Positions 5,665 through 40,400 of a stretch of 44,879 bases of DNA are shown in pieces. Each line of letters opens with the position of its first letter. Within the stretch, counting starts at the first letter, position 1. The stretch is from Thraustochytrium sp. TN22. Taxonomy: Eukaryota > Sar > Bigyra > Thraustochytrida > Thraustochytriidae. The notes beneath the pieces are model-generated. The model did no database searches. It was given only the letters and a program-made list of their open reading frames with translations, and was not told the DNA's origin. The stretch is from contig JABLUY010000277.1 of NCBI GenBank assembly GCA_013306675.1, forward strand, positions 1-44,879, read 5' to 3'. The translations under genes were made by a program, and so were the position numbers.

Positions 5665-6107
5665 GAGGTGGCGCTCGGACAGCGAGACCGAGCGCAGGGT
5701 TCCGTTCGTGAGGAGCCTGAGCGGCGCTCAGATGAGGGGCGAGAACTCGTGGGTGGCATGATGCGGGCTCATGCGGGCTGGCTGATGCATGTGATGCAGT
5801 AAACGTAGACGCATGGCCCAGGGGCCGGTGAAGCTAGCGAATGTTACATTGCCGCATCGACCTTGAGTGTTGGGCCGAGCTGAGCGACTCGTGAGCAGAG
5901 GACAAGATGGCAGCGGAACTCACGAGCTTAGAACCCGAGTCAGCCAGGCCTAGCGAGCGAGCGAGCGGCAAGGCTTTGCACACGCGACAAGGCAATCTCA
6001 GCGCGTTCCCTCTGCAGTGCGAGTCTCCGTGGTCGAGGTGGTTGACTAACCACCACCTTGGGCAAAGCCGCAAGGAGAGCGCGCGCGCGCGGCGGCGGCG
6101 GCGCGCG

Positions 6108-6155
<48 letters not shown>
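6108..6155. repeat. GCG triplet microsatellite before Nse4
   Basis: About 15 uninterrupted GCG/GGC units in the Nse4 leader. If translation began at 5907 this would be a polyalanine run; from the preferred start it is 5' UTR. Confidence 0.8.
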
Positions 6156-6156
<1 letters not shown>

Positions 6157-6227
6157 GGCAGCGAGAGCCGCAGCTGGAGCTTACGCCCCTGCGGCTTGGC
6201 GCGGCGCGGCGCGGCGCGGCCTTCGCC

Positions 6228-7148
6228 ATGGCGGACTCGGACAGGAAGCTGCGCAAGCAGCACAAGAGGCGGCTGCAGCAGCTGGAGGGCAGCAGGGCGA
6301 TCCAAGAGGCAGGGCAGACGTTCAGGAAGATCAACCTGGGCCGGCTGGAGCAGGACAATGAAAAGGATGAGGTGATCGCGGTGGTGCAGAAGCTGGACGA
6401 CAACCTGAAGAACGTCAAGGACACGACGCTGGCAAAGCAGGATGCCGAGGTGATGGGCGAGGTGGTGCACGGCGCCGCCGAGGCCATCAGGAACGCAGCG
6501 CGCGACTCGCGGCGTATCGACAAGGGCCAGCTCATGGACAAGCTCAGGCGTAAGTTCGGGGGCGAGAAGAAGGACGACCTCATCGGTTGGGCCCGCCTCG
6601 GCGACCACGTGAACAAGTACTTCAACGGCATCTTCAACAACGGCTTCATGATGAATGCGCTCGAGGTGGAGCGCAAAGAGCGCGCCGCACCGCAGAAGCG
6701 GCGAAAGCCGAACGAGGACGCGGTCTTCGACAAGCCCGAGCTCGTGCGCGCCGACGCGCCCACCGCCATGGGCCATCGCGCACAGAAGCACCACGAGAAC
6801 CTGCAGGAGGAGCTCAACCGCTACGTGCAAAAGAACAAGGAGGTTGGCATGCTGCAAACGCTCTTCAACCCTGAGTCCTTCACGCAGACCGTCGAGAACG
6901 TCTTCGCCGCCTCCTTCCTCGTGCAGGGCGAGTTCGCCATCAAGCTCGACGGCGAGGGCATGCCTCTGCTCGTCAGCCCCTCCGAGAGCTCTCGCGGCGA
7001 CGTCAACACGCACCAGACCGCCTTGAAGACCAACCAGTCCATCTTTTCCTTCTCCATGAGCGACTTTAAAAACGCCGTCGAGTCCTACGACATTCGCAAG
7101 CCGGCGCTCCGCACCAGGAAAGACGCCATCTACGCGAACACCACCTGA
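6228..7148 (+). CDS. NSE4: Nse4 kleisin subunit of the SMC5/6 complex
   Basis: Kleisin that bridges the SMC5 and SMC6 heads in the nuclear DNA-repair complex, working with Nse1 and Nse3. The 306-residue product starts MADSDRKLRKQHKRRLQQ. The N-terminal helical kleisin part contains RKINLGRLEQDNEKD and RIDKGQLMDKLRRKF. The C-terminal winged-helix domain (about residues 210-300) carries the family hallmark NPESFTQTVENVFAASFLVQ, then DGEGMPLLVS, and the closing SFSMSDFKNAVESYDIRKP. Length is close to the usual 300-400. The open frame extends upstream to an ATG at 5907, which would add 107 residues with a 15-alanine run from a GCG microsatellite. I chose 6228 because it has a strong GCCATGG context and begins where the conserved protein begins, but 5907 also has a fair context and cannot be excluded. 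Confidence 0.9.
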   Translation: MADSDRKLRKQHKRRLQQLEGSRAIQEAGQTFRKINLGRLEQDNEKDEVIAVVQKLDDNLKNVKDTTLAKQDAEVMGEVVHGAAEAIRNAARDSRRIDKGQLMDKLRRKFGGEKKDDLIGWARLGDHVNKYFNGIFNNGFMMNALEVERKERAAPQKRRKPNEDAVFDKPELVRADAPTAMGHRAQKHHENLQEELNRYVQKNKEVGMLQTLFNPESFTQTVENVFAASFLVQGEFAIKLDGEGMPLLVSPSESSRGDVNTHQTALKTNQSIFSFSMSDFKNAVESYDIRKPALRTRKDAIYANTT

Positions 7149-9909: not shown

Positions 9910-12900
9910 ATGGCGGGCCGCGGAAAGGCGCGCGAGGAGGCGCTGGACCTTGCGGACGCGGCGAGCGAGGATGTCGGGGGCCTGCTGCAGCGGCGGCTGG
10001 GCGTGCCTGCGAGCGGAAGCCGTGGCGTGCTGCCCACGTTCAAAGGGCGCGGGGCGGCGACCTCGGAGGAGGCTCGCACGGCGCTGGAGGAAAGCTACGA
10101 CAAGGATGCGGAGCGGCGGCGCCAGGAGGGCCTGGAGCAGGGCTTCCGCGACCTCAAGCAGCGATCGCGCGCGCGCAAGTACCTCGCCCAGGTCATGCAG
10201 CGCAAGCTGGAGACGCATGTGGACAATTTGCTGTGGAGTGAGACGCATGCGCTGGACGTGGAGAACGAGCAGCTGCAGCTGGCCAAGAAGGAGTTTGAGG
10301 AGTCCGGGCGAGCGCTGCTGCGCGAGGCAGAGCGCGCGGTCTTCGAGGAGGAGCGCGTCCGCGTGCACGAGGCCAAGGCCGTCGCCGCAGACACGCACGA
10401 GCGCGTGCGCCCGCGTCGCTTCCGTGTGCGCGTGGCAGCCACCAGCCTGTTGGCTGCCTGCATCGCGTTCTTTGGCTCCCTCCCGGTCACGCGCCGCGTC
10501 ACGGGCAACGTGCTCCGCCAGCGTATCGCGGACTACCTCCGGCTTGACACCGCCGCGAACTTGGCCAGTTGGCTAGCCTGCGATGACCCGCTAGGCGTTC
10601 CGATGGACTTTGACGCTGGGACCAGCACGCCTGGGGCGTTCTGCTTTGCAGAAGCCGACACCATCGCGACCTACTACCTGTACAATCTGACCAATCCGGA
10701 CGAGGTTGCACAGGACGGCGCGCAGCCCATCGTGGATGAGATTGGACCTTTTCCCATGATGGAGCGCGCTCGCAAACTGATTGCCGGCAACGGCTCCGCT
10801 ACAGTGCATGTGGACCGCCTCCCATACCACGCTTATGTCGGGGATGCTGCCCTCCTGGACCAGGTGCTTACCGTGCCAAATCTGGGCTACTTCAAGTTCG
10901 TTGCCCACCTGCAGTATGAGGTCGGTCTTTCCGACACAGACGCCGTCCTCTTCCCCTGGATTGCCACCCTGCGCGTCCACGCCAAGCTGCGAGAGCACGC
11001 CAACACGACCTCGGCGACGTGGTTCACGCAGACGGGCGACGGGGACGACTGCTGGACCTTTGGCTGCTTTTTACACGCCTTCAAGTTCGCCAACCTGCTG
11101 GCCTCGACGCCGGACGCGAGCGAGCGTGCCGCTGCCGTCGCTGGGAACCGCGAGAGCCTGCCGGTCTTCGGCAACGTGGGCTACTCGGATGCGCAAAAGG
11201 CGACTCTCTTTGCGGCCTTGGAGGCCGCCGCGGAGTACGCCACCGTAGATTCCGATGGCGACCCGGCCTGCACCTTTCCCTCGGCGTCCTTCTGCGCCGA
11301 GGTTGGTGCGGCCGTCTCCAATGCCAAGGTTCTTGTGGACGCCTTCTCGTCGCACTGGACGGCCACTGGCGACGCCGCCATCCTCACGAGTCTCGACCGC
11401 GTGCGCATGGCGTCCGGCGTGGAGACCGGCGACCTCACCGCCTTTTATGAGGGCCTCTCCTCGCGCGACCCGACCTGCCGCGCGTCCACCACTGTGCTCG
11501 GCTCGCTCTCCTGCACGCAGCTCAGCGACCTGGCGCTCTACCTGGACTGGCTCTTCCAGGCCGAGTGGCTCTCGCTCGCGACGCTGCGCGGGCCGGCCAA
11601 GGGGCCCTTCGCGCAGCTCACCGCGCGCGAGATCCTTCTCACCGGCTACGAGGACATCACCGTGGCGCTCAAGAGCGGGGCGGCCGCCTCCATGCCTGAG
11701 ACGCTCAATCAGGCGCGCTCAAGGGCGGACTTCCCTCGTGGCCTGTACGAGGGCATTTACGATGCTAGCGCGCTCTCCGAGAGCGATCTAGCCTGGCTCA
11801 CTGCGGGCTGGGTCCCGGCGATTGCCTCCGGGACGGCGAACGCCACCTTGGCCTCCGTGGAGGCGGCCCTGGCGGCCGACGACGACGGTGCACGTGTCTT
11901 TCCTGGTACATGGCTCCTCGCACCCACCACCCAAGACGGCGGGAGAGCGCTCGCACTCGAACGCCGCACGTATGCGAATGGAACCGCCTCGCCCGAGTAT
12001 ATGCAGAGCGTGCGCTGGATGAAGGCGATCGACGGCCGCATCGCCGTCACGCTCTTTGCTGAGCCCACGCCGCTGCAGGGGCGTGACCAGTGGCTGCAGC
12101 TGGCGCCCACATTTGACATGCTCTGGTCGCGCCTGCGCCTCGACCAGGATGGCAACACCTATGACGAGAGCGCGGCCCTGAGCGCCTGGCGCTCAGACGT
12201 GGACGTCTGGGTCGACGACTTGTATCGCGCGGTCACCTTCGCCGAGCGCGGCGCGCTCGCAAGCTACGGCGGCGTCGACGCGGACCTCTTACAATTCGGT
12301 CTCAAGTGGGACCGCATGCAGCGCCTGGCGCTGGACCGCGCCTCCAACTACACCACCACCTGCATGGTCAACCTGGCGCCCATCCATGACCACCTGCCGC
12401 TCTGGGCCGGCTTTCCAAGCTACCTAACCTGCAACAGTACCAACGGCGCTGAGACGCCCACAACCCGCGACACCAGCAGCACGGACCCGACCATGACGTA
12501 TGACGAGCTGCTCGCTCAGCTCAACAACGCAGACGAGTACGGCGCGACGGACGATGACGTGGACTACGACCTCGTGCCAGAAGACGAGATCCCGCTGCCG
12601 CTCGACGAGCGCGCCGTCATTCGCAATCCGTCCGACCGCCTCGCCTCCAACGAGAGCATGAACCTACTCACGGTGGAGCCGGTCTCGGGCACCACCGTCG
12701 CGCTCTCCGTGGACCTTGGCATCTATCTGCAGCTGCAGGCCATGACTAGCATGTTGCCGCACGCGCCCAACGTCAAGCTCCCGTTTTATACTGTGCTTCG
12801 GGAACGCGTCCTCCCCACGTCCCAATTGGACGCGCTCGCGTCCGCGCTAGCGCGCAGCGTGCGACAGATCAGAGCTGTGACCTGGATGGGCTCCCTCGTC

Positions 12901-13458
12901 GCCAGCGCCTGCGCGTTTCTCGCCTCCCTCGTGCTTTACCGCCACCGCGGCACGCCCGAGCTGTCTCCGGCCAAGGTGCGCCCCGTCGACCTGCTGGAGA
13001 CCGAAGCGGAGAGCCGCCGCCGCAACATGGAGCGCGAGCAGCGTGAGCGTCTCAAGGAGCTCAAGACCAAGTATCGCGCAGCCCGTGAGCGCCTCGAGGC
13101 GGCCCGCATCGAGCTCAACCAGCAGACCGCCGGCGACCTCGAGACGCTCTTCCGCATCAAGACGCGCCGCCGCCCGGGACAAGTGCAGAAACAGGTCTCC
13201 CCCAAGTCCGTGCTGGCGCTTGAGCGCCTCGATGCGAGCCGCCAGAAGAACGAGACAGAGGGCACCAACGTCCACGGAAAACCCAAGCGCAAGCGTAAGC
13301 GTCAGGTCGTCGATGATCTGGACGCCATCTACGGCATTGGCCGTGACGGCGACGTTTTTGAGTTCTCCAATGCGCAGCTCCGCACGCTCGTGGAAAAGTA
13401 CGGCAATCCGCTCGAGCACTTGATCCAGGACGCGCGCCCGGAGCGTGACGCTAGCTAG
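9910..13458 (+). CDS. Giant CD36/LIMP-2-family membrane protein
   Basis: An 1182-residue member of the CD36 scavenger-receptor family, which binds lipids or lipoproteins through a large luminal/extracellular domain held by a membrane helix at each end. The family core is clear: YYLYNLTNPDEVAQDGAQP followed by VDEIGPFPMMERARK near residue 254, and LLTVEPVSGTTVALSVDLG then YLQLQ before the second helix. Helix 1 is at about residues 170-192 (AATSLLAACIAFFGSLP) and helix 2 at about 991-1011 (MGSLVASACAFLASLVLY). The ectodomain is ~800 residues, about twice the usual size, with several Asn-X-Ser/Thr sites. Unusually, there is a ~170-residue charged, coiled-coil-like N-terminal tail and a ~170-residue C-terminal tail with a long Arg/Lys/Glu helix, a KPKRKRKRQ patch and a conserved-looking end (FSNAQLRTLVEKYG). 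Ordinary CD36 tails are very short. The start has a good AATGG context. Confidence 0.85.
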   Translation: MAGRGKAREEALDLADAASEDVGGLLQRRLGVPASGSRGVLPTFKGRGAATSEEARTALEESYDKDAERRRQEGLEQGFRDLKQRSRARKYLAQVMQRKLETHVDNLLWSETHALDVENEQLQLAKKEFEESGRALLREAERAVFEEERVRVHEAKAVAADTHERVRPRRFRVRVAATSLLAACIAFFGSLPVTRRVTGNVLRQRIADYLRLDTAANLASWLACDDPLGVPMDFDAGTSTPGAFCFAEADTIATYYLYNLTNPDEVAQDGAQPIVDEIGPFPMMERARKLIAGNGSATVHVDRLPYHAYVGDAALLDQVLTVPNLGYFKFVAHLQYEVGLSDTDAVLFPWIATLRVHAKLREHANTTSATWFTQTGDGDDCWTFGCFLHAFKFANLLASTPDASERAAAVAGNRESLPVFGNVGYSDAQKATLFAALEAAAEYATVDSDGDPACTFPSASFCAEVGAAVSNAKVLVDAFSSHWTATGDAAILTSLDRVRMASGVETGDLTAFYEGLSSRDPTCRASTTVLGSLSCTQLSDLALYLDWLFQAEWLSLATLRGPAKGPFAQLTAREILLTGYEDITVALKSGAAASMPETLNQARSRADFPRGLYEGIYDASALSESDLAWLTAGWVPAIASGTANATLASVEAALAADDDGARVFPGTWLLAPTTQDGGRALALERRTYANGTASPEYMQSVRWMKAIDGRIAVTLFAEPTPLQGRDQWLQLAPTFDMLWSRLRLDQDGNTYDESAALSAWRSDVDVWVDDLYRAVTFAERGALASYGGVDADLLQFGLKWDRMQRLALDRASNYTTTCMVNLAPIHDHLPLWAGFPSYLTCNSTNGAETPTTRDTSSTDPTMTYDELLAQLNNADEYGATDDDVDYDLVPEDEIPLPLDERAVIRNPSDRLASNESMNLLTVEPVSGTTVALSVDLGIYLQLQAMTSMLPHAPNVKLPFYTVLRERVLPTSQLDALASALARSVRQIRAVTWMGSLVASACAFLASLVLYRHRGTPELSPAKVRPVDLLETEAESRRRNMEREQRERLKELKTKYRAARERLEAARIELNQQTAGDLETLFRIKTRRRPGQVQKQVSPKSVLALERLDASRQKNETEGTNVHGKPKRKRKRQVVDDLDAIYGIGRDGDVFEFSNAQLRTLVEKYGNPLEHLIQDARPERDAS

Positions 13459-13626: not shown

Positions 13627-16600
13627 TCACTGTAGGTCAAGCTCCGAGGCCTGTGAGTACCAGCGCTGACTCTTGAACTCGCCAAAGGAAAGGTCGCGTT
13701 GGTCGCGCCGCAGGCCGCGAGGAAATGCTGGATTGGCGTATAGCTCGTAGTCGCGAAAGTCCTGCGTAACAAGGTTCTTCCACAGGTACAGGTGCTCGTT
13801 GCTCGCGTCCAGGTAGTTCATGGAAATGCCCACGATGTTGTCGTGGTTGCGCACGCCGTGCGGGCAGCCTCCCGGGATGAAAATCAGGTCGCCCGGTCGC
13901 TGTATGCCCTTGTACATGGGCGCGTTCACCAGGAGCGACATCTTTTCCGCGTCGGGGCGAAAAACATCCAGGAAGAAGTGCGCGGACAGCGGCTTCTCGT
14001 ACAGATCGACAATGTCGAAGCGATCGTAGAAGCGCCACTCCTTCTCGCCCTCGATCAAATACATCCAAAAGTTGGTTCCGCCCGAGTCCACGTGCATGCG
14101 CGACTCCGTCCCATTCGCGCCCACGAAGAGCGAGGGCCACGAGTGCTGGTAACCCAGGAACGGCATGCGCTGAAAGTAGTCCCCGGCAAAGTACTTGGGG
14201 AAGCGAAATTCCTCAAACGGCGGCGGCCCCAAAATCTCGGGACAGAACCGCGGCAGCCCCCAGTCGTGCAAGTACCACTGCCTGCGCGTCTCGTTGGTCG
14301 TGTGCGTGTCGAGGTACTCTTGGAGCGAGATTCGTTCCCTGACGCCCACGAGGCCGCCCCAATTCTGCGTCGTCGCGGACTTCTCCTTGAACTCGGGCCG
14401 GTGCTTGCCGCACTTTTCCGCAATGTGCGCCTTGGTCCAGGGAGTACGAAACATGTCCAAGTCCGTGATGATGAGCGGCTTGCGCTTCTTCGCGTAGTCC
14501 TCAATAAATTCCTCGAGGCTCAGGTCCTTGGCGCTGCGCCGCTCGATGTCGAGCATGCGCTGGTCCGCCAGCGATGGCGCGCGGCCCTTCTCCGTCATGT
14601 ACCGGGCAACCACCGCATCGTGCCGCCTCTTTATGAGTAGCACGCGCTCCTTGTACACGAACACCAGGTCCTCGTACAGCTGCGCGCGCGTTTGCTTCGC
14701 CCCTGGATCCGTCTCGTTCTTGAGATGCGCAAGCAACAACTGCGTGTATGCGGACGCGCGCTGGATCTTGACCCAGAGATCGTGCTGCCGCTCCGCGTCT
14801 GCGGAGATGCGTCCGAGCTCTTCCGAAGTCTCCGGGATCGCAGCCAAGATCGGCGCGAGGTACTCGCGCTCGCCGAGATATGCCAAGACGCGGTCGAGCG
14901 TCTCGCGCAGGATCTGGTTCTCCCGCTGCGCCTGCCGTTCCGCCGTGAAGCGCCTGTACGACTCTTCTGCAAGCAAGAAGTCCTCGTACAGGGTGCGAAT
15001 CCAGTCCAGCGCGACGCCTGGCTTCACGTGCAGCGGCGCAGACCTGGCGTTCATCACTCGCAGGTCCGTCCATTGCTCCGCCTTGGGCTTGGCGTTCGAC
15101 CCTGGTGCAACCTGCTCTTCTTCCTCCTCTTCCTCCTCCTCCCCTTCCTCCTGGTCGTCGTCCAATCCTTCCTCCTCGGCGGCCGCAGCGACTCCTTCGC
15201 CATCCTCATTGGCGAAAGGGTCGCCCTCCGCGAGGGCATCGGTCTGATTCACGGACCCGTCTCCTTGTCCCTGCGGGGCGGCGGCCTCTTCCTTCTCTGG
15301 TACCTCGGTCAGCTCGTTGAGAAGACCAGAGAGCCATGCGCTGACGCGGCCGACGCCAGCCTCATCGTCCTCGAGCTCGACTAGGCTCACCCCGGCCAAG
15401 TCCGTGGCGGAATCGGGGAAGACCCAGTATTGGTCATGCACCGCGGAGAACATGACAAGGCTGGGAAGGTCCTCAGCGGTGAGGTCGAACTGGAAGGCGA
15501 AGTTGCGACCGTTGGCAAAGGTGTACTTGATGCTGCGATACTGCGGGCTCGACGCTGGGGCCTGGGCGACCTTCTCCACCAGCGAGACCGCGCGCGCGCG
15601 AGACGCCTCGTCCTTTTTGTCGACGAGCAGCACGACGAGGAAGTCGAACGCGTCGATGATCTCCCAGCTGTTGTCCGGCGTCAGCTCGATGAGCACCGGA
15701 TCCCTGTACTTGAGGATGAATTGGTACAGCGCGGCACGGTACGAGGACGCGGCGCCGCGAGAGGTCGCGCCGGCGCCCACGCGCGTCGTGAAGACGGTGC
15801 CGACGCCGGGGGCACTGCGCACCAAGACGCTGCAGGCGCTGAGCCCTGTGTCGAAGCGCTCACAAGCGCTCGTATCCGTGGCCTTTCCATAAAAGACCAT
15901 GCCCCGCCGCCGCTCCACGAAGGTATCGAACGCCATCTCCTCGCTGGCACAGGCGGCGTCCTGAGGGAAGCAGGCGACGGCCATCGGGTAGGCACCAGAC
16001 GCCAAAAAGGCATCCGCGGCATCCGCATCGGCGAGGGCGGGCGCATCGGCAGCCAGTGAGCGCCTCAAGAAGTCGGCGATCTGCTCAGGAAGGATGGGAC
16101 CCGTGTACTCTTCCAACACCTTGCCGTACTGGAAAGACTTGGTGATGAGCGGGTAGAAGTTGGACCGGCCGAAGCGAAAGCCGTCAAGCCGGTGCGTCTC
16201 GTTGGCCGCCGTCGGGTCCGTGGCATGCTCCTGCCACGCCGCCGTGGTTTCCGGGCTGAAGCGCGTCTGCAGGTACGAGTCGACGGCCACGTTGACCACG
16301 CCCACGCTCGCCCTACCTCGCAGCGAGGCGTCCTGCGCAACGAGCTTGGCAGCCTTGTCCAAGTCTTTGCGCGTCACCAGGAATGACTCGGACCGTGGGT
16401 CGAAGAAGGACACCAGCACGACGCGGCCGTCCGACTGGTTCGTGAACTCCGTGAAGTTCCGCGTCGTCACCTGCTGCGCCCAGCGCATCGGCTTGGGGTC
16501 CACGAGCGGCAGCTCCATCTTGACCGTCTCCAAGCTTTCGTCCAGGTCCACGGCGCGCAGCAGTTCAGCGTGCGCCGGCCCAGCGTAGGAGGTCCCCGGG

Positions 16601-16803
16601 TCCGAGTCGGCGCCGCTGCCGGCGGCCGCCGCGGCGACCCCCACCGCTACGACAGCCAGCGCTGCGGCCTGCGCCCAGAGGCGCGAGCGTGGGCGTTGTT
16701 GGAGAGCTTCCTGCGGCTGCTCCTGCGCGGCTCGCCCGGCGGCTGCTGCGCGGCGCTGGTGCTTGGCGCCGCCGTCCTCCTTCCTGGCGGCCGCCCCAGC
16801 CAT
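13627..16803 (-). CDS. PDI-like (thioredoxin folds) fused to JmjC oxygenase, ER type II membrane
   Basis: A 1058-residue protein. A basic N-terminus and hydrophobic helix (AQAAALAVVAVGVAAAAAG, about residues 44-62) suggest a signal anchor with the rest in the ER lumen. Residues ~105-250 form a thioredoxin-like 'a' domain (RVVLVSFFDPRSESFLVTRK), in which the PDI CxxC position reads without cysteines. Residues ~265-500 resemble PDI b and b' domains (LYQFILKYRDPVLIELTPDN, DAFDFLVVLLVDKKDEASRA). An acidic Glu-rich linker, then a helical region (~590-740), lead to a C-terminal JmjC domain. Its metal ligands are visible: RMHVDSGGTNFWMYLIEG (His904, Asp906) and FIPGGCPHGVRNHDN (His982), closest in look to JMJD6-type hydroxylases. 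Predicted: a 2-oxoglutarate/Fe(II) oxygenase acting on secretory-pathway proteins, with the redox-dead PDI part binding substrate. There is no KDEL-type end (ELDLQ). The start has an excellent ACCATGG context; an ATG 21 bp upstream is weaker. Confidence 0.88.
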   Translation of the reverse strand: MAGAAARKEDGGAKHQRRAAAAGRAAQEQPQEALQQRPRSRLWAQAAALAVVAVGVAAAAAGSGADSDPGTSYAGPAHAELLRAVDLDESLETVKMELPLVDPKPMRWAQQVTTRNFTEFTNQSDGRVVLVSFFDPRSESFLVTRKDLDKAAKLVAQDASLRGRASVGVVNVAVDSYLQTRFSPETTAAWQEHATDPTAANETHRLDGFRFGRSNFYPLITKSFQYGKVLEEYTGPILPEQIADFLRRSLAADAPALADADAADAFLASGAYPMAVACFPQDAACASEEMAFDTFVERRRGMVFYGKATDTSACERFDTGLSACSVLVRSAPGVGTVFTTRVGAGATSRGAASSYRAALYQFILKYRDPVLIELTPDNSWEIIDAFDFLVVLLVDKKDEASRARAVSLVEKVAQAPASSPQYRSIKYTFANGRNFAFQFDLTAEDLPSLVMFSAVHDQYWVFPDSATDLAGVSLVELEDDEAGVGRVSAWLSGLLNELTEVPEKEEAAAPQGQGDGSVNQTDALAEGDPFANEDGEGVAAAAEEEGLDDDQEEGEEEEEEEEEQVAPGSNAKPKAEQWTDLRVMNARSAPLHVKPGVALDWIRTLYEDFLLAEESYRRFTAERQAQRENQILRETLDRVLAYLGEREYLAPILAAIPETSEELGRISADAERQHDLWVKIQRASAYTQLLLAHLKNETDPGAKQTRAQLYEDLVFVYKERVLLIKRRHDAVVARYMTEKGRAPSLADQRMLDIERRSAKDLSLEEFIEDYAKKRKPLIITDLDMFRTPWTKAHIAEKCGKHRPEFKEKSATTQNWGGLVGVRERISLQEYLDTHTTNETRRQWYLHDWGLPRFCPEILGPPPFEEFRFPKYFAGDYFQRMPFLGYQHSWPSLFVGANGTESRMHVDSGGTNFWMYLIEGEKEWRFYDRFDIVDLYEKPLSAHFFLDVFRPDAEKMSLLVNAPMYKGIQRPGDLIFIPGGCPHGVRNHDNIVGISMNYLDASNEHLYLWKNLVTQDFRDYELYANPAFPRGLRRDQRDLSFGEFKSQRWYSQASELDLQ

Positions 16804-19006: not shown

Positions 19007-22000
19007 TCAGGCCATCGCCACGTCGTATGAGGGCTTGGGCTCGTCGTCTGATTTGGCAGAAGAGCGAGCTTCCTTGGGCGGGAAGAGACACCACACCGAG
19101 CGTGGCATGAACGAAATGAGCAGCACGAACGCTTCCAGCACAAGCACCGATAGCACAAGGGCCTCGACGCTGACCTCGTCAACGACCTCGGCTTCTCGCG
19201 CCAGGCCGATCCAGCCGAGACCCATGAGGAGCGCCAGAGAGACCACGGCCAGGGCGTTGTTGGTGTCATCCACATAAGGGCGGATCTTATCCGTCGCGTA
19301 CGTAAAGGCCAGACTGGTCACCGTGAAGAAGACCATGCTGCCAGTGAACGAGGCTTGGTGCGCCAGAAGGAAGACGGAGGAAAGCGCGAAGCGCCGGGCG
19401 AGGTCAAAGCTTGCGAACCATGCCCTGCCAGGCCTCAAGGGCTCGCGCAGGAACCTCGTGCCATCGAAAATGGCGTTCCTGTACGAGGCTGCCTCGTCGT
19501 CCTTACGCCTGAAGCGGGCCCCCATTACGAAAAGGGCTACCGTGCCAAGAGGGAGGCATATGAACATGACGACAGCATAGATGCGGCCACTTTGCGCCGC
19601 GGACGAGTCAAAGTCGACCGTGTAGTCTGCGCGCAGAGCGCGGTACGGGTCCGGGTCGCCCTCATAGTGCGGCATGGAGTGGTACAGGAAGGTCTTCGTG
19701 AGCGTGTTCGTGATGCCGATGAAGCAGAAGAGGAGGATTTGGAGCGACAGCCAGCACGCAAAGGAGAGCGATGCAAGCGTCGACGCGGTGCGGGGACGAA
19801 GTCCTATCGCCACGACCACGACGAGGCTCGTCAGCGCGACGGCAGCCGTCGGAAGAAGCGTGACGAGCAGCAGTTCCTGGAGGTGGCCCGGGCTCCACAC
19901 GCATCCAACGTGAAACGGCACGATGAGCATGGCCAAGTTCACCTCCAATACCGCGAGCACCGTGGAGACCCCTGATCCCGGAAGAAGTCCGGCAGTTGTG
20001 ATGAAAAGCGAGGCGAGCTGCGCAAAGGCAACCGTGATGCGAAGCTTTTCGCCGTACAGGTGCCACGCCCCTCGCAGGCGTCCCTTGAAGCCGCCAGCTC
20101 CGGGCGTCGGTGCGCTGCCTGCCTCGGTTGCGCCGTCTGCTCCGACTGAGCTGTCTGCCTCCGCCGCCTGAAATGAAGTGTGGCCAGCTCCGTTTAAGCT
20201 GGGCGAGTCGCAAGGCCTCGCGCGGCGCACCGCCCGCAACGAGATCGCTGCGCCCTGAACTGAGACCATGGCTCGCTTCGCCGCGGCGCCCATCGCGTGG
20301 TATGCCTGCGCGATGCGCGGGGAATGCGCGATACCCGAGGTGTTCGGCCGCGCCGACGACCCACACAAGACGCGGATGGTCAGCACGGCGGGCAGCACAA
20401 CAAGAACCCCGACCATTGTCGCAACGACAATGAGCACGTCGAGGTCTCTGCGCTCGCGTTCAGGCGTGCAAGAAGAGCACTCCCCGCCACTGCCCTGTAC
20501 GCTGAAGCCATGCACGCACTCGACGCAGAGAACGCCTCGGCGGCGCGCTTCGCAGTAGCTCGCCGCGGACAAAGCCGCCGACGCCTTGGCTTCGTGGGTG
20601 TGCGAGAAGACGCCGCCCTTGCAATGGCCAGGCGCGCAGGGCAGGAAGTCCTCGCTCCGGTTCGAGATGCGCCAGTAGCCCGGGCGAAGTGGTGCAGACT
20701 CCAGCGTAAGGCCGGGCTGGTCGCAGTCCAGCTGGTCTGCGCACCGCACTGCATCACCGTTGAGCTCGAGCATTCCAGGCCTCGTGACACATTCACGCGC
20801 GCTCGCCGCGCCTGCGCCAAGAGTTTCCGGAAACTCCCTGGGGCACTCGCTGCAGATCGTCGAGTCCTCTGGGTGCGTGTAGTAGCCACGGGCGCACACG
20901 CACATCTCGCCGACGGCCTCGCGGTCCGCCGGACAAGAGCACTCCTCGGCGCTCGTGGCGCCAAGACGCTGCGTGAGGGCGCCCGCCGGCGTGCACGGCA
21001 AGCACTGAGTGGCTTTGTCTGTGCCCGTCTTGTATTCGCCCAACATGCACTTCGTGCAGCGGCCCGCGCCAACATCCAGAAAGGTTCCCTCGGGGCAGTC
21101 GCACGAAAAGTCGCCATTGCCGAGGTCCACGGTGATGAAACCCTCGTCGCACACGCAGTCCGCGAGCGTCAGCGCGAGCGGGTATGCTGGTCTCGAATGC
21201 GTGTGCGAGAAGGCGGGGCAGGCTTGATTGCAGTCCCGTCCGAAGACATCGTCCCGGGCGCACAGCTCACAGGCGACGCCCTCGAAGGCGGAGGTGTCGC
21301 TGCAGAAGCAGGTACCAATCGAAGACCAGTCCTGGTCCTCTTCTGCGGGCCCAATCGTGAGGTCAAAGCCCAGCATAATCCGCTCGTTCGTCGTCAAGTA
21401 CCGCAGCTGTGCGATGGATGGCTGGGAACACGAGCCCCGGTACGAGCATCGCGACAGGCAATCGTTGGCCGTGTTCTGCGACAGCTCGAAAACAAGTTCG
21501 AGGTTTGGGACGACCTTGCCACCGAGACCGTCAAGGTCGCCGTCCCCGTCCATGTCGAACATGCTGAACAGAATGGTCTCAGACGTCCAATTGAACGCGC
21601 GAGGGACGAAGACCGGCCAGCCGTCACTCAGCGAGGCACTCGAGCAGTCCAGACGGCGAAAGTACGCAGGACTGGATAGAAACCAGACTACCAGGTCGGA
21701 GCAGCCATCCATGTCCACGTCAAAGAGGGCGAGCGACGAATAGAACGAATCATCCATGTCGGCGCTCGTGAGAAGGGTGCGGGGTGCGGCAAATGCCGGC
21801 TGCGTCGCCGTGCCCTCGTTGCGCAGGAGGAAGACCCCGTCTTCGGATAGCGCCACAATATCCAGCAGGCCGTCGCGGTCCATGTCCTCAAACTGCACCG
21901 CCGAGATATGCGGAAGATCCGTGAGCTCAAAGGAAGTGGGCCCGGCAAAGTTGATCGTGCGGCTGGATTCGTCACAGACGTAGACCAGATGAGAGAAGGT

Positions 22001-23518
22001 TCCCAGCTGAAGCGGCTGACCCCAGAGATCGGCTACTTCATCGATAAAGTTGAGCTGTCCGCGACACAGGTTCCCGGGCAGCTCCCACGAAACGCGCGCA
22101 GCTGGGAAGATATTCTTCTGCCCTGACGTATCGAGATGAAAGACACCGGACACGTTGCCATACGCATGGACCAGAAAGTGCGCGCCAACTCCATACTGGA
22201 GCGTCCCCCGGATCAGCTGGACGCCGATGCCAGCTTCCAAGCCAGGGTTGGACACCTCGCGCGTCGTCGCTTGCTGGCTCGCTTCGTAGCCCCACTCAGC
22301 CCTGTGATGACGATACGTGCCGCCACGCCGTGTGATGTAGTCCTGGCTTCGCTGCGTGGGGGCAGCGCTCATTCTGCCCACGGCGTGTGGGAGCCCTGCA
22401 TCCGCCGCAAAGCGAAGAGGGCTCTGGGCCGGTTCTTGCGCCACGAAGGGGGGCGACTGTGGCAGGACGGCGTTCTCCAAATACGCTCTGACGCTATAGG
22501 TGACCTTCCAGCTGTACTCACTCCACGCAAGCCAGTCGTAGACGACCACGTCCTGGTCACCATCCAGGTCCAGGTCAATTGCCATAGCATACCAGGTGGC
22601 GGCGTCGTAGGCGTAAGCGCCCATGTAGTCCTGCGTTCCCTGGGCCTTGACATACGTGGGACTCAGGTTGGTTCCCTCGTTGCGATACAGAGCCTTGTCC
22701 TGCCTGCTGAAGCGGTCCAGCACGCCGTCTCCATCGGCGTCGAGAAAGAGGCCCTCTTCGCTGGAAACCAGCTGGAAGGTGAGGTCCTCTCGCGGGCCTT
22801 GGCGAACGAAGACCGCTTGCTTGAGCAACGCAAAGTTCACGTACCACAGGTCAAAGGGATCCGGCTCCCAGTCCAGGCGCACTTCCAGGATAAAGTCGGA
22901 GGCCCCATCTCCGTCCACGTCGAACGAGGAGAGAAAGAAGGGCGCGACGTCCGATCTGGGGTCATACGCGTCCGACAGGAAGAAGTAGAACTCCTCCTGA
23001 GTGCTCGCGTTCACTAGCGTGATGCGGGACATGGACGTCTCGTGCACCTCGGTGCTAGCCCCGGCCATCTCGAGGACAAAGAATTCCACGCTGGAGTCAT
23101 TGCTCAGGACCGGCAGCGCGCAAAACACCAGATCGTCCGGGCTGTCCAGAGCGCCGACGAGATTCGCTGCGCCGACGAGCCGCAGCGAACGGCCTTCCAC
23201 CATGGGCAGAATCTCCGCGGCGTTTACAAGCCCATCCACGTCCAGGAACTCCGGTTCCTGCGGGTGCACGGCCTGCAGCACGGTACGTTCCGGGCTTGCC
23301 CTGTGCCTGCAAGCGCCTTGCGCCTGTGGCGCCGCAAACCCCTGCCGGCACTCGCCGCAGGATCCGTCTTCATCGGCGACTCTGTGCCACGCCTCGCACG
23401 TGCCATTCGTCGTGGAGCTCTCCCCCTCATACTCCGCGCTCACGCACCGCAGCGCGACCACCAGCGTCGCCAGCACGGCGAGCCTGACGGTGAGGAGGCC
23501 CGCGCGCAGCCGCTTCAT
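19007..23518 (-). CDS. FG-GAP/GCC2-GCC3 multi-pass transmembrane receptor-like protein
   Basis: A 1503-residue putative cell-surface protein. It opens with a signal peptide (MKRLRAGLLTVRLAVLATLV...). Between about residues 190 and 660 there are at least six FG-GAP/VCBS-type calcium-binding loops: DVDGDGASDF, DADGDGVLDR, DLDLDGDQDV, DMDRDGLLDI, DVDMDGCSDL and DMDGDGDLDG, an arrangement expected to form a beta-propeller-like ectodomain. Residues ~700-1020 are cysteine-rich with ephrin-receptor-like GCC2/GCC3 repeats (CTKCMLGEYKTGTDKATQC, CVCARGYYTHPEDSTICSEC). From ~1024 to ~1470 there are about eight or nine hydrophobic helices, including LIVVATMVGVLVVLPAVL, SFACWLSLQILLFCFIGI and LSVLVLEAFVLLISFMP; the C-terminal tail is short. 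Such propeller/Cys-rich/multi-TM proteins occur in protists, but the ligand and signalling output are unknown. It could be an adhesion receptor or a channel-like sensor. Divergent from the SPRY-IQ gene. Confidence 0.8.
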   Translation of the reverse strand: MKRLRAGLLTVRLAVLATLVVALRCVSAEYEGESSTTNGTCEAWHRVADEDGSCGECRQGFAAPQAQGACRHRASPERTVLQAVHPQEPEFLDVDGLVNAAEILPMVEGRSLRLVGAANLVGALDSPDDLVFCALPVLSNDSSVEFFVLEMAGASTEVHETSMSRITLVNASTQEEFYFFLSDAYDPRSDVAPFFLSSFDVDGDGASDFILEVRLDWEPDPFDLWYVNFALLKQAVFVRQGPREDLTFQLVSSEEGLFLDADGDGVLDRFSRQDKALYRNEGTNLSPTYVKAQGTQDYMGAYAYDAATWYAMAIDLDLDGDQDVVVYDWLAWSEYSWKVTYSVRAYLENAVLPQSPPFVAQEPAQSPLRFAADAGLPHAVGRMSAAPTQRSQDYITRRGGTYRHHRAEWGYEASQQATTREVSNPGLEAGIGVQLIRGTLQYGVGAHFLVHAYGNVSGVFHLDTSGQKNIFPAARVSWELPGNLCRGQLNFIDEVADLWGQPLQLGTFSHLVYVCDESSRTINFAGPTSFELTDLPHISAVQFEDMDRDGLLDIVALSEDGVFLLRNEGTATQPAFAAPRTLLTSADMDDSFYSSLALFDVDMDGCSDLVVWFLSSPAYFRRLDCSSASLSDGWPVFVPRAFNWTSETILFSMFDMDGDGDLDGLGGKVVPNLELVFELSQNTANDCLSRCSYRGSCSQPSIAQLRYLTTNERIMLGFDLTIGPAEEDQDWSSIGTCFCSDTSAFEGVACELCARDDVFGRDCNQACPAFSHTHSRPAYPLALTLADCVCDEGFITVDLGNGDFSCDCPEGTFLDVGAGRCTKCMLGEYKTGTDKATQCLPCTPAGALTQRLGATSAEECSCPADREAVGEMCVCARGYYTHPEDSTICSECPREFPETLGAGAASARECVTRPGMLELNGDAVRCADQLDCDQPGLTLESAPLRPGYWRISNRSEDFLPCAPGHCKGGVFSHTHEAKASAALSAASYCEARRRGVLCVECVHGFSVQGSGGECSSCTPERERRDLDVLIVVATMVGVLVVLPAVLTIRVLCGSSARPNTSGIAHSPRIAQAYHAMGAAAKRAMVSVQGAAISLRAVRRARPCDSPSLNGAGHTSFQAAEADSSVGADGATEAGSAPTPGAGGFKGRLRGAWHLYGEKLRITVAFAQLASLFITTAGLLPGSGVSTVLAVLEVNLAMLIVPFHVGCVWSPGHLQELLLVTLLPTAAVALTSLVVVVAIGLRPRTASTLASLSFACWLSLQILLFCFIGITNTLTKTFLYHSMPHYEGDPDPYRALRADYTVDFDSSAAQSGRIYAVVMFICLPLGTVALFVMGARFRRKDDEAASYRNAIFDGTRFLREPLRPGRAWFASFDLARRFALSSVFLLAHQASFTGSMVFFTVTSLAFTYATDKIRPYVDDTNNALAVVSLALLMGLGWIGLAREAEVVDEVSVEALVLSVLVLEAFVLLISFMPRSVWCLFPPKEARSSAKSDDEPKPSYDVAMA

Positions 23519-34422: not shown

Positions 34423-37400
34423 TTACGAGCGGGCATCCTCGTGGATGCCGCCGAGCTTGGCGTCCTGAAAGGCGCCGGACTTGAAGGTCTCGAGCATGTG
34501 CTGCCAGTTGTCGTAGTCACTGGGCAGGTAGAGCGTCTTAGCGCAGGTGGTCGCCTTGGGACGCAGGTACGGGCGCATCTGGATGGCCTGTGGCTGCTCG
34601 ATGAGGCGGTCCACGCAAAGATCGGGCATACGCTTGGCGTCCTCGGCATCACCATTGTCGTCGTCGTCGGTATCGGCACTGTTTTCACCGCGCGGAACGC
34701 GCTCGACGGCGTGGCCGGCCTTGAAGGCGCGGCGAATGTCCATGGGCACGGAGGTGTCAAAGGTAAGCGTCCAGGTGTCCGGGTCCCAGGCGGAGACCTT
34801 GGCACGGACCTTGGCAGTACGGATGCAGTCGCCAGGACGGAACCAGGCTGCGCGCGAGCTCGCCGAGGCGCGCGCGCCGGCGCTCTCGTCGCCGGGTGAG
34901 CGCGCCAGGCGGCCGTCCGCGGTGCGCACAAGCGAGAGCGCGCGTGGCGAGTACCACCACTCCGCGACGCGGATGCGGCCGTCCACGTTAGTGACGACGG
35001 CCACCTCGCCCGGGCGCAGCGGGCCGCGGTCTGCATCGTCGTAGTTCCGGAAATCGGTGGAGAGCATGACGCTGTCACCAACTTCGAAGCCGCGGTCCAG
35101 GTCCGTCTGTACACGGACTACGACGGCTGGAATGAATTCCATGAGCGGCGGGTAGACCTTGATCTGCGGCAGGCCCGACAGAGGTACGCGGGGCTGCGCC
35201 GTGACAAAGCTGAGGAACTGGGCGCGCTCATTCATCGTCATCTCCTTCAGGCACTGCACGAGCATCTGGATGGCGGGACTCTGCGCCGAGTAACCCTGCA
35301 TCGGGACGATGCATCCCAGCAGCGGATCCTCGTCCTTCCACAGAATCTCCTCCTTGCCGCACAGCATACGGCGCAGCTCGGTGTGCGAGAAGTTGAAGAT
35401 CAGCGCGTCCCGGCCAGCCGCGCCCAAGACGTCCCGCAGGCCGTCGCAAAAGGCATCCGCCTGGCGCGCCACGCCGTTGCCCAGCCACCACGTGAGTACG
35501 AGCTCCAAGTACTCGCCCACGTTGGCGCGCGTCACGCGCCGCGTGGCACCGCCTGGTACCAGCTCCGCGGCGACGGCGATCTCGGCGCGCCGCTTCTCTA
35601 CGCGCTTCGCGCGCGCCAGGCCGATCTGCACGCGGGTCTTCTGCGACGCTTTGATGGCCTTCCACCGCTGTAGCTTTGCGTGGCCGACGCTCGCCAGCGC
35701 CGCGTCAATGTCGCCCTGGCTCTGGCCCAACTTGCTGGCCGCCTCCGCGTACGCCACCAAGTCTGCAGCGGGAGCGCCCTTGGCCGGCACGGCCAGCGCC
35801 TCAAAGGCCGCGCTCAGGTCGCGCGTCGCCTCGCCCGTGCCGCTCGCGCTCGCGGCGGCGCTACCACCCGCACTGCCTGCCGTGCTGCTGCTGCTGCTGC
35901 TGCTGCTGCCATCGTCGTTGCCGCGGTCCGCAACGGCGGCGCGCTTCTGCGCCGCCGCGGACCGCCGCCCAGCGCCAAAGGTGGTGTGCTCCAGCGTCGA
36001 CAGCCTCTGCGCAGGGTCCACAAAATAGAGCTCCACTACGTTGAGCAACTCCTCGATGCTGGCCATGTCGCCAGCCTCGTGCAGCGTGTACAGGCGACGC
36101 ACCAGGCCGCCCGAGCTTTGCGCTGCGATATCGCCCGCATTACCGTCGTCGCCGAGCCCGGCGCCGCCCTCGAGCAGCGCGAGCGCGGAGATGGGTAAGA
36201 GCGCCTCATCCATGCCGCGCTGGCGCTGCTGGATGAGCATGAAGAACTCCGAGGAGAGGGGCAGTGGAACGTTCATGCCGTCCAAGAGCGCCTTGGCCAT
36301 GATGCGGCCCAGGAACCGGAAGCGCCGCAGCACCCGCGCGTTCTGTGCCTGCGCGCTGCGCAGCACCTCATCGATCGTGTCGCGGTTCGTCTCCGCGTCA
36401 TCATCAAACTTGATGGCCGCCTCGTCCTCCTTGCCTTCACTCATCTCCACCTTGGCCGGCACCGCGCGCCCGCTAACCTTGGTGGTGGCTGTGGCTGTGG
36501 CTGTGGCGGCGGCACTTTCGGTCGCACCGCCACCCGCGCCGGCGCGGCGCTGCGCGCCCGCGGCCGGGCTCGTCACCACCGAGAGCGGCTGGAGCGCCTC
36601 GGGGCTGCCATCTCCGCCATGCACGGCACCCATAGGCAGAAGCGGCTGCGGGAAGAGCCCGGTGGGCGCGAGCAGGTGCACGTCGCCTGTGGCCTCCGCC
36701 TCGGTGTCCGTGTCCGCTTCGCCACCGTCCGCCTCCTCGCCCTTGGCAGCAGCGTCCTCCTCGCCGCTCTCGCCGAAGCTCGGGCCGCGGCTGCGCGAGC
36801 CGCGCGGCGAGGCCACGGGCTTGTCGCTGCCGGCAGGATTGGCCCAGAGCGGGATGTGGCGGTTCTCCGCCACAAGCTGCAGGCGCTCCGACACGCTCGA
36901 ATAAAAGTCCACCGTGACTCCTTCGCCGGCGCCCGTCTCGTCCAGGAACTGCACCACCAGCTCCGACCGCTGCTGCATGTGCTGCCGCATGAGGAGCTCC
37001 GCGTCGCGGAGCAAGTCCGACCGGCTCACCTTGACCAGGTCCTGGTGCAGCTGACCGATGCAGTGCTCCTGCTCGATCGCGCGGATCTCGTCCTCCAGGC
37101 GGTCGCTCAGCTCCTGCAGCTGCTCGAAGCGCAGCATGTCCGGCACGCCCTTGAACATGGCCGAGATCTCCAACGTCACGTGTGCCAGCTGCTTCTTCTT
37201 GGCGTTGTAGCCCGTGATCTCGTCCTGCAGCCACGCCACCGCGCGGGACACGCCCAAAGCCGCCGTGCGAAAGTGCATCTCCCGCACGCGCCGCCGGAAG
37301 AGGAAGGAGAACTCGCGCGGCATGAGCGCCACCCAACGCGGGAAGCACCGCGTCGCGATGGACAGAGGGTCGGAGAGTTGATCTAACAGCAGGTCCGAGA

Positions 37401-40400
37401 GCGTCTCGCTGCGCCACGGCAACGACTTGCCAAAAGCAGCCGCCAGAGGGTCTGCGCCCTCGTCGAAGGGTACCAGATGTGCCGACAGCAGGTGCAGAAG
37501 CAGCAGCGTGTCCCTCAGGCCCGGCACATTCGCGTCGATCCCGCACTCCTCCAAGAGCGTCATCACCTGCGCCATGCCGCCCTCCTCGCCGTCCTCCGCA
37601 TCCGCCGCCACCATGAGGTCCACCGGATGCCCTTGTTGCAGGAACGCCTCGTCCACGACGCGGCTCGCCAGCGGCAACGGCGAGCCCGCCGAGGAAGGCG
37701 CCGGCGCGGGAGCGGCCCCGGAAGTCCCTGAGATGACGCGCATGGCCAGCAGGTCGCGCCGCAGCAGCGTCGGCGACTTGATCGGCGACACCGCCGGGCT
37801 CATGGGCGCGTCGTCACCGGTCATCAGCGGCCGCTGGCACAACTGCGAGTACGCCGCGCAAATGGCCGCCCAGTTCACGCTGCGCTCCGCGCGCACGCTC
37901 TCGCCCGCCACGACGGCCGTCGACGCCTGCGCCTGCGCTTGCGCCTGGGCCTGCGGGGCGTTGCCGTCGATGCAACGAACGACCTCGGACAGCTTGTTAC
38001 GCACGGCCCAGTCGCGCAGGTCCGGCACCACGGGCCGCAGAGCCTTGACAAAGGAAGCGAGCGTCAGGTCCTTGTCCTGCGCCACGTCGTACGCCAGCAT
38101 GCGCGGCGTGCCCCAAGGCAGACGCTGCAGCAGGCGCCGCGGTGCGTGCTCGTAGTCCGGGTCGCCCGGAAAGAGGCACCGCACGCGCCAGTCCAGGTAG
38201 TACTCGCGGTCCCACTGCTCCCAGGCCGCCTCGTCCGAAGAGCCCATATTGTGCAGCTGAAAGAGCGCCTGGAACATGGACACCTCCACTTCCTGGTTGG
38301 CCAGGATCGGCGTTTGCGCCGACGCCGCCTGGTCCTCGTGCGCGTCGCGGTCAAAAGTCACGGACCGCTCGGTCTTGTCACCGCCGTCCACCGCGTCCTC
38401 GTCGCCCGCCAGGAGCGCGGGCCGCTTGCGGATGAGGAAGTCCACCGTGAGCCGCGGCACGCCCATCGCGAACAGCCGGTCGTCGTCCTCCTCCTCGTCG
38501 TCCGCGCCGTCCGGCGTACCAAAGCCGTCCGCGCCCTGATCATCGAAGTCGTCAATGCCCAGCGCATCCTCGTCACCGGTCTCGTCGCCGTCCGGCGTGA
38601 ACTGGATGCGCTTGTAGGAGGTGCTGTGGCCGAACGCAGTGAACTGCCGGCTCAAGTGCACGGGCTCTTGCACGTCGGCCTTGCTCGCCTTGCCGCTGCC
38701 TCCTCTGGACGGACCGTCGCCGAAATCCTCGTCGTCCGCGCGCCATGCGCTCGGGTCCTGCCGCTCCTTGCTCTTGAACGGGAAGACGCGCGAGGTGCGC
38801 TGCGCGATGCGCGCGCGCGTGTCCGGCACATCCCAGACCACGCGGCCATCGTCAAGGACGCAAGTCAAAAGCAGCTTGGGGGCCGCAGCGGCCGCGTCGT
38901 CCGGCGCTTCGCTGGAACTGACCTCGCTGCCGCCGGCCGCGGCCACCTCGCCCACATCGCGATGCGCCACTACCGTGGCGCTGATCCAGCGTCCGGGCTC
39001 CAGGGCCCGGGCCGCCGCAACCTCGCTGGCGGGGCCCTCCTCCTCGCGCCGCGTGTCGGGGTCCAAAAAGTCCTCCGGGAGCAGGGAGACCTGAGCGCGG
39101 TGGCCCGGGCGGGGCGGCGGGTCAAAGTGCCGCGCCGCGCGCCCGCTGCGGCGGCTGCGCAGGTGCTCGAAGGAGGACACGATGTCCCGCTCCACGACCG
39201 GAGGGATGGGCGCCTCCGGGAAGAGGTCCACGCGTGCCGACACGACGCGGTCGCGGCGGCTGCTGCTGCTGCTGCTACTGCTGCTGCCGCCGCCCACATC
39301 GCAGACGACGCCACCCACAACCCGCGTGCCGGGGCCGCCCGACGCCGAGACTTGCGAGGCGCCGCGCACGCGCGACTGCTGTGCGTAGCCCTGCACGCGG
39401 GTGTAGAGAATCTCCGCCTGGCGGCGCGTCTGGAACTGCGCAAAGACGCCACGGCCCTCGCCCTCGAGCGAGGTGGAAAACTTGGCGTAGAAGTCGGGCT
39501 GGTGCTCAAAGCCGCGGGTCACGAAGTTGTACTCGGCCTGCAGCACGCAGTCCTCGCGGCGAAGCGCGTCAAAGAGCGAGCGCCCGGCCGCATTCGGAAA
39601 CACCTTGCGAAAATCGAAGCTGACTACCTTGCCCGGGCCCTGGCCGATGTGGCACACGAGCTTGGGCTTGACGCCGCGCTCCGAGTCGCCGTCGTCGTAC
39701 GCAATGTCGTAGGTGCCGTCAGCGTTGACGCGCGCAATGCGGCCTTTGTAGTACCTGCTCTTGCCCGCGTACCGGCTTTCGATACGGTCATTGAGCTTGA
39801 ACTTGATGGGCGCATTTCCCGAGCCCTCGGCCTGCTGCGAGGCTTGGGCATCAGGGCTGCTGGCCAATGCGCGCGCCACGGCGCTCGTCGGCCCGGGCAC
39901 GAGAAAGACTGAAAACACGTGCCGCTCCTCGAAGGCCGCCGTAGTGTCCGGCACGCACAGCCGGCGTTGCGGGACGTCCTTGGCCACCTCGCGCTCCGCG
40001 GCCTCGGCCCCCGTCGTGGTCTCGCCCTGGCCCTCTGAGTCCTGCGCCGCGGCCCGCACCTTGACCAGGGCCTGCGCACTGTACGTGTAGTTGCCAAGAC
40101 CTTCGACGCGCACCTCGTTCTCCTCGACGGCCACGACGTTGCCCACCTGACCGCGGAAGCGCGGCATGTCGGACATGTAGCCACCGTGCTGCGCTGCGAG
40201 CCGCTCGAGTTCCGCGACGTCGTCGATGAGCTTGACCTCGTCGCCGACGCGGATCACGTCGTCATGCATGAGGCCGTCCTCCAAGAACGCGACATCGTAC
40301 GCGAAGGCGTCCTCCGGGCCGATGCCCTGCGCACGATTCACGGCACACGCCCGCACGGCGAGCACTTCGGCGCGCCGCCAGCCGGGCCTCATGTCGTCGC

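Follow-up and report, generated by a model that had tools for sequence, protein, structure and literature searches.

What could an oxygenase do at the end of a protein that resembles a disulfide isomerase deprived of its redox site? The question is raised by a gene in the 44,879-nucleotide contig JABLUY010000277.1 of Thraustochytrium sp. TN22 (GCA_013306675.1), the whole of which is called the window here. A single open frame on the minus strand, from an ATG at 16803 to a stop at 13627-13629 (codon positions checked), encodes 1058 amino acids. Its parts follow each other, from N to C terminus, as a hydrophobic segment, three thioredoxin folds in the a-b-b' order of protein disulfide isomerase (PDI), an acidic linker, a helical region, and a JmjC/Cupin_8 domain (Table 1). 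With the single sequence, Pfam places Thioredoxin_6 at residues 357-465 (E 2.3e-7), Cupin_8 at residues 764-997 (E 4.6e-16), and JmjC at residues 892-996 (E 2.5e-7), all above cut-off; the last two score 59.9 and 31.6 bits against curated cut-offs of 27.4 and 24. A first-pass annotation, made from the sequence without database searches, had read here one frame joining a signal anchor, thioredoxin regions in PDI order, and an intact JmjC metal site. The frame, Pfam, the profiles, and the structural model confirm this, and a full-length paralog and 39 relatives (see below) place the observation well beyond chance.

With the single sequence, Pfam does not find the a and b domains, which were recovered by profile comparison. 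Aligned with hhalign to a PDI of the same genome, a profile of 30 of the 41 family rows reaches E 2.2e-10 and sets DPRSESF over the APWCGHC of the active site. The true profile scores 84.8, versus 19.9 for the best of 100 column shuffles and 15.8 for the reversed profile. Taken alone against the same PDI, the a piece scores 52.5 (best of 40 shuffles, 17.5) and the b piece 29.3 (best of 40 shuffles, 19.7). The b' piece alone, compared with one PDI, scores 17.7 and does not rise above its 40 shuffles (18.0), so that the b' assignment rests on Pfam Thioredoxin_6 and on the fold. AlphaFold models the PDI part at a predicted local distance difference test (pLDDT) score of 87, with three thioredoxin domains at about 104-253, 256-366, and 372-499. 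Among the matches listed in a PDB fold search, this part superposes on PDI, ERp57, and calsequestrin, and its first domain fits individual catalytic domains of PDI-family proteins, e.g., ERp46 and P5, with a root-mean-square deviation of 1.4-1.9. A structure search had been set in advance as the test that could overturn the a-b-b' regions, and it returned thioredoxin folds. By sequence only, one family profile searched against PDB (best 60 of 67 matches listed, as for all results of this search) finds JMJD6 at E 4e-18, ERp57/PDI at 3.1e-15, yeast PDI at 1.1e-5, and calsequestrin at 1.3e-5; an unrelated CFAP46 chain matches profile positions 431-546 at 2.7e-4. The match to the PDI family model TIGR01130 (ER_PDI_fam; 1.9e-5, 24.4 bits) is far under its cut-off of 344.25.

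These matches also bear on a structural reading of the arm, in which it would be a calsequestrin-like, acidic luminal scaffold that binds Ca2+ or self-associates and thereby clusters or retains the oxygenase. Calsequestrin has three redox-inactive thioredoxin folds, as does our protein, but it is of the b-b-b' type (PMC12781119, available part), lacks an enzyme domain, and gives a much weaker sequence match among the 60. The profile is far closer to PDI and ERp57, the first domain fits catalytic domains of the PDI family, and the acidity of the linker varies from 7 to 46% D+E across the 29 of 41 rows in the family identity table. We consider the scaffold rather unlikely, although it remains a live rival.

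If the arm derives from PDI, what became of its active site? The query contains no CxxC. The first active-site Cys column is Ser in all 32 rows that have the column, and the second is Phe or Tyr in 29 of them; two of the 32, P0017 and P0031, are poorly aligned at the motif. P136 is kept in 27 of 30 rows and P218, at what we take to be the cis-Pro position of thioredoxins, in 28 of 37. In the a domain of a PDI-family member one would expect a CxxC, or else one or more reactive Cys, and the motif here offers no candidate Cys for thiol-disulfide exchange. The replacement of the active CxxC, proposed earlier for this one protein, is thus real (DPRSESF, with S138 at the first Cys), and its loss is conserved across the family. 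Retention of one non-Cys motif in distant lineages suggests a role rather than decay. Other proteins share parts of this design. ERp44, ERp57, PDI, and PDILT have the a-b-b' thioredoxin arrangement but no fused oxygenase; ERp44, itself a-b-b', differs from the query in keeping one Cys, and PDILT carries SKQS in its a domain (PMC12781119, available part).

How widespread is the fusion? The genome that includes the window (37.9 Mb, 453 contigs) encodes a full-length paralog on another contig (C165), with the same part order and 35% identity over residues 2-1050. Database searches returned 19 and 39 proteins, which pooled to 39 relatives after removal of P0020 (E 3.1e-15, without any motif), excluded before all family counts. 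A profile search with a 13-row alignment returned only 2 proteins, probably because its search words drew on the first 500, less conserved residues, and it was rerun on the JmjC region. In the resulting alignment of 41 rows (relatives, query, and paralog), Pfam at E 0.01 finds Cupin_8 in 41, JmjC in 38, Thioredoxin_6 in 26, and PhyH in 5. Both a DPRS-like motif and the HxD of JmjC are present in 28 relatives (P0017 not counted). The same domain pair, which the annotation had suggested seeking in other protists, is therefore found both in the paralog and in these relatives. Two sources are named, Hondaea fermentalgiana, a thraustochytrid, and Effrenium voratum, a dinoflagellate; a relative labeled MMETSP0325 is presumably from Crypthecodinium. 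Five two-module relatives have transcript-type names (P0003, P0022, P0027, P0033, and P0038, the last with a GFBE name that we take to be a transcriptome record). An error of sequencing or of the gene model that links two neighboring genes would be the trivial explanation of the fusion, and had been foreseen as such; the presence of the fusion in these transcript-named relatives and in a paralog on another contig speaks against such an error, and we give this explanation practically no weight. Among virus contigs and prokaryote genomes, searched with two peptide patterns each, there was no confirmed relative, which is weak evidence of absence.

The tree of the JmjC domain (39 rows including the outgroup; P0005, P0008, and P0019, with cut JmjC ends, left out) places the query in a labyrinthulid-type clade of 6 rows (support 98/95) and the paralog with Hondaea fermentalgiana in a second one of 3 rows (100/99), a grouping that suggests a thraustochytrid-like genome. 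A 17-row clade includes Effrenium (100/98). A separate 5-row clade (100/100) might be mamiellophyte green algae, by our guess, and P0032 stands alone. The five PhyH-fused members (P0012, P0014, P0023, P0024, and P0025) group together (100/98). Each of the five has, N-terminal of the DPRS motif, the PhyH motif HPD and a distal motif that reads H-H or F-H, so that in this clade two oxygenases flank a redox-dead PDI arm in one chain. In four of the five a hydrophobic segment precedes everything else, and both oxygenases would therefore be luminal. The Effrenium voratum protein P0028 has more than 300 extra residues, Cys-rich by eye, past the usual family end, and may be a joined gene model.

Is the oxygenase likely to be active? 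Its Fe(II)/2-oxoglutarate (2OG) set is intact, with the metal triad H904, D906, and H982 and the lysine K921, whose column we take to be that of the 2OG-binding Lys of JMJD6. JMJD6 is the top JmjC relative in PDB by sequence profile, and JMJD5 heads the 50 listed rows of the fold search; both are nuclear or cytosolic proteins and, among the matches listed, are the closest solved JmjC relatives but match over the JmjC part only. Judging from its conserved residues, the domain is most likely an Fe(II)/2OG hydroxylase, and by analogy with these relatives hydroxylation would be favored over demethylation. It could instead be a noncatalytic binding module that has kept its ligands, which we find very unlikely: no row that reaches the columns deviates in the metal or 2OG residues (41 of 41 or 37 of 37), while the arm drifts. 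The next relative of this JmjC domain in the same genome (C63:66496-67227, minus strand) shares 34% identity over residues 746-998 and has no thioredoxin domain by Pfam.

The compartment is a further question. The query has one hydrophobic peak (residues 42-60, Kyte-Doolittle mean 1.98). The hydrophobic threshold is reached by 21 of the 41 members and missed by 20, several of them N-terminally cut; some of those under it, e.g., P0027 and P0033, start like signal peptides by eye, and three members have a second hydrophobic stretch. N-X-S/T sequons number 410 in the 41 proteins versus 197 expected by shuffling, and 7 versus 2.7 in the query; the excess is not seen in P0002, P0007, P0009, P0010, P0016, P0017, P0018, and P0031. 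Only four columns are at least 60% Cys with at least 20 filled rows: C278 (37/37) and C314 (38/38) in the b domain, and C798 and C854 (41/41 each) in JmjC, where the alignment has gaps in JMJD6. The four invariant Cys, which presumably pair as disulfides in an oxidizing lumen, and the sequon excess both fit the lumen. A luminal topology is supported by these features of the sequences, as had been proposed, yet the endoplasmic reticulum (ER) is not fixed as the site and the Golgi is equally open: the query ends in LDLQ and not in a KDEL-like signal, and 1 of 41 members ends in KKEL. The corresponding ends of ERp44 and PDILT are RDEL and KEEL (PMC12781119, available part). A motif [LFYM]D[LI] occurs within the last 20 residues of 28 of the 41 members.

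How could the two modules work together? PDI-type folds bind polypeptides. The reading that we think has the better chance of being right, though well short of certainty, is a hydroxylase of the lumen that carries its dead PDI arm in cis, in the role of the separate PDI subunit of collagen prolyl 4-hydroxylase. The protein would be a type II, signal-anchored enzyme in the lumen of the secretory pathway, with an active Fe(II)/2OG hydroxylase at its C terminus. The PDI-derived arm would have given up disulfide chemistry and kept peptide or partner binding and scaffolding; it could hold unfolded or extended secretory clients, or brace the catalytic domain, while JmjC hydroxylates client side chains. 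Activity, protein substrate, and arm role are what we infer here. An arm that holds the substrate would be plausible by comparison with complexes in which PDI is a partner subunit; among the fold matches, structure titles name PDI in complexes with collagen prolyl 4-hydroxylase, MTP, EDEM/Htm1, and tapasin. In collagen prolyl 4-hydroxylase (alpha2-beta2, P4HA and PDI/P4HB), a 2OG hydroxylase and a PDI module also meet in the secretory lumen, and PDI contacts the catalytic domain via its a and a' sites and its b' pocket (PMC9676403, available part). There, however, the PDI part is a redox-competent chain of its own, with a-b-b'-a' domains, and catalysis falls to another 2OG family, whereas the query has one chain, a JmjC domain, no a' domain, and no CxxC. 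Very few oxygenases of this type are known from the secretory pathway. JMJD8, by its description, is luminal, signal-directed, and N-glycosylated, and no JmjC protein had been found in the ER lumen before it (PMC5684140, available part), but it is JmjC-only and has no counterpart of the PDI-like arm.

The layout also suits another substrate. Golgi enzymes are typically single-pass type II proteins, and the PhyH family, present in one clade, includes small-molecule oxygenases. The enzyme could thus modify a small molecule, a glycan, or a lipid in the Golgi lumen, with the arm aiding only its own folding and solubility. The nearest solved relatives in the profile search, JMJD6 and JMJD5, are named protein oxygenases, and polypeptide binding by PDI-type folds (PMC12781119, available part) argues against it as well; we see a small chance for such a non-protein substrate, the other live rival. 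Returning to the hydroxylase with a client-holding arm, a bolder version is that marine protists independently arrived at the collagen-hydroxylase design in single-chain form, as a dedicated system for hydroxylating proteins in the lumen. The dead arm would present clients to JmjC and, in one clade, to PhyH, for two successive modifications per client. We hold this version only tentatively and would sooner bet against it. Collagen models match 12 times in the genome of the query (9 over cut-off, best 4.6e-9), and no substrate was singled out from these matches; the same genome has 15 PF13640 and 17 PhyH matches to other 2OG oxygenases.

The annotation knew of no described enzyme with this architecture. 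This agrees with the literature searched: among the matches listed in the open-access literature, titles and the first parts of abstracts hold no description of a PDI-JmjC fusion, JmjC is absent from the main text of a PDI-family review (PMC12781119), the available part of a thraustochytrid proteome study (PMC12221091) mentions no jumonji, cupin, or hydroxylase, and that of PMC11953307 is unrelated. The domain pair is, however, already in databases, in a Hondaea protein named JMJD6. Two well-known modules are here fused in a new architecture, which occurs in several protist lineages. A Symbiodiniaceae "JMJ21-like histone demethylase" named in the available part of PMC12743301 might belong to the same family. 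The database name JMJD6 on at least one such gene suggests roles at odds with the topology. If our reading is true, luminal protein modification would be a regular job of JmjC proteins, with JMJD8 no longer an odd exception. A hydroxylase would have gained, in cis, a PDI module whose redox site was lost and has stayed lost, and the family would be a natural experiment parting the holding role of PDI from its disulfide role.

Table 1. Features of the PDI-JmjC gene, in positions of the window
Feature	Positions	Strand	Basis or remark
Whole gene	13627..16803	-	1058 codons + stop, intron-free
Hydrophobic signal-anchor-like segment, residues 42-60	16624..16680	-	Kyte-Doolittle scan; model helix 42-57, low confidence
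Thioredoxin fold 1, PDI a-like, residues 104-253	16045..16494	-	AlphaFold model and fold match
SFFDPRSESFLV, residues 132-143; DPRSESF replaces APWCGHC, S138 at first-Cys position	16375..16410	-	Alignment, hhalign register
Thioredoxin fold 2, b-like, residues 256-366, invariant C278 and C314	15706..16038	-	Model, fold match, alignment
Thioredoxin fold 3, b'-like, residues 372-499	15307..15690	-	Pfam Thioredoxin_6, model, fold match
Acidic linker, residues 500-588, 34% D+E	15040..15306	-	Model (mostly low confidence), composition
Helical region, residues 589-745	14569..15039	-	Model, pLDDT about 88
JmjC/Cupin_8 oxygenase domain, residues 750-1000	13804..14556	-	Pfam, fold search, PDB profile match
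Metal ligands H904-V-D906	14086..14094	-	H904 and D906 in 41/41
K921, aligned to 2OG-binding Lys position of JMJD6	14041..14043	-	41/41; JMJD6 alignment
Distal metal ligand H982	13858..13860	-	37/37 rows reaching the column
Invariant C798, JmjC domain	14410..14412	-	41/41
Invariant C854, JmjC domain	14242..14244	-	41/41
N-glycosylation sequon N837-E-T	14287..14295	-	Sequon in 30/41
N-glycosylation sequon N897-G-T	14107..14115	-	Sequon in 23/41
C-terminal extension ending LDLQ	13630..13803	-	Median family identity 40% (29 members)

Several other frames of the window have recognizable domains. On the plus strand, 1615-2961 encodes an HPPK-DHPS folate-synthesis fusion, 5907-7145 the C-terminal domain of Nse4, a part of the SMC5/6 complex, and 9910-13455 a 1182-residue frame with a CD36-family match. 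On the minus strand, a 1503-residue frame (19010-23518) with FG-GAP and ephrin-receptor-like repeats is perhaps a surface protein, and a 3391-residue frame (34426-44598) with HECT, UBA-like, and Mind-bomb SH3 matches is likely a ubiquitin ligase.
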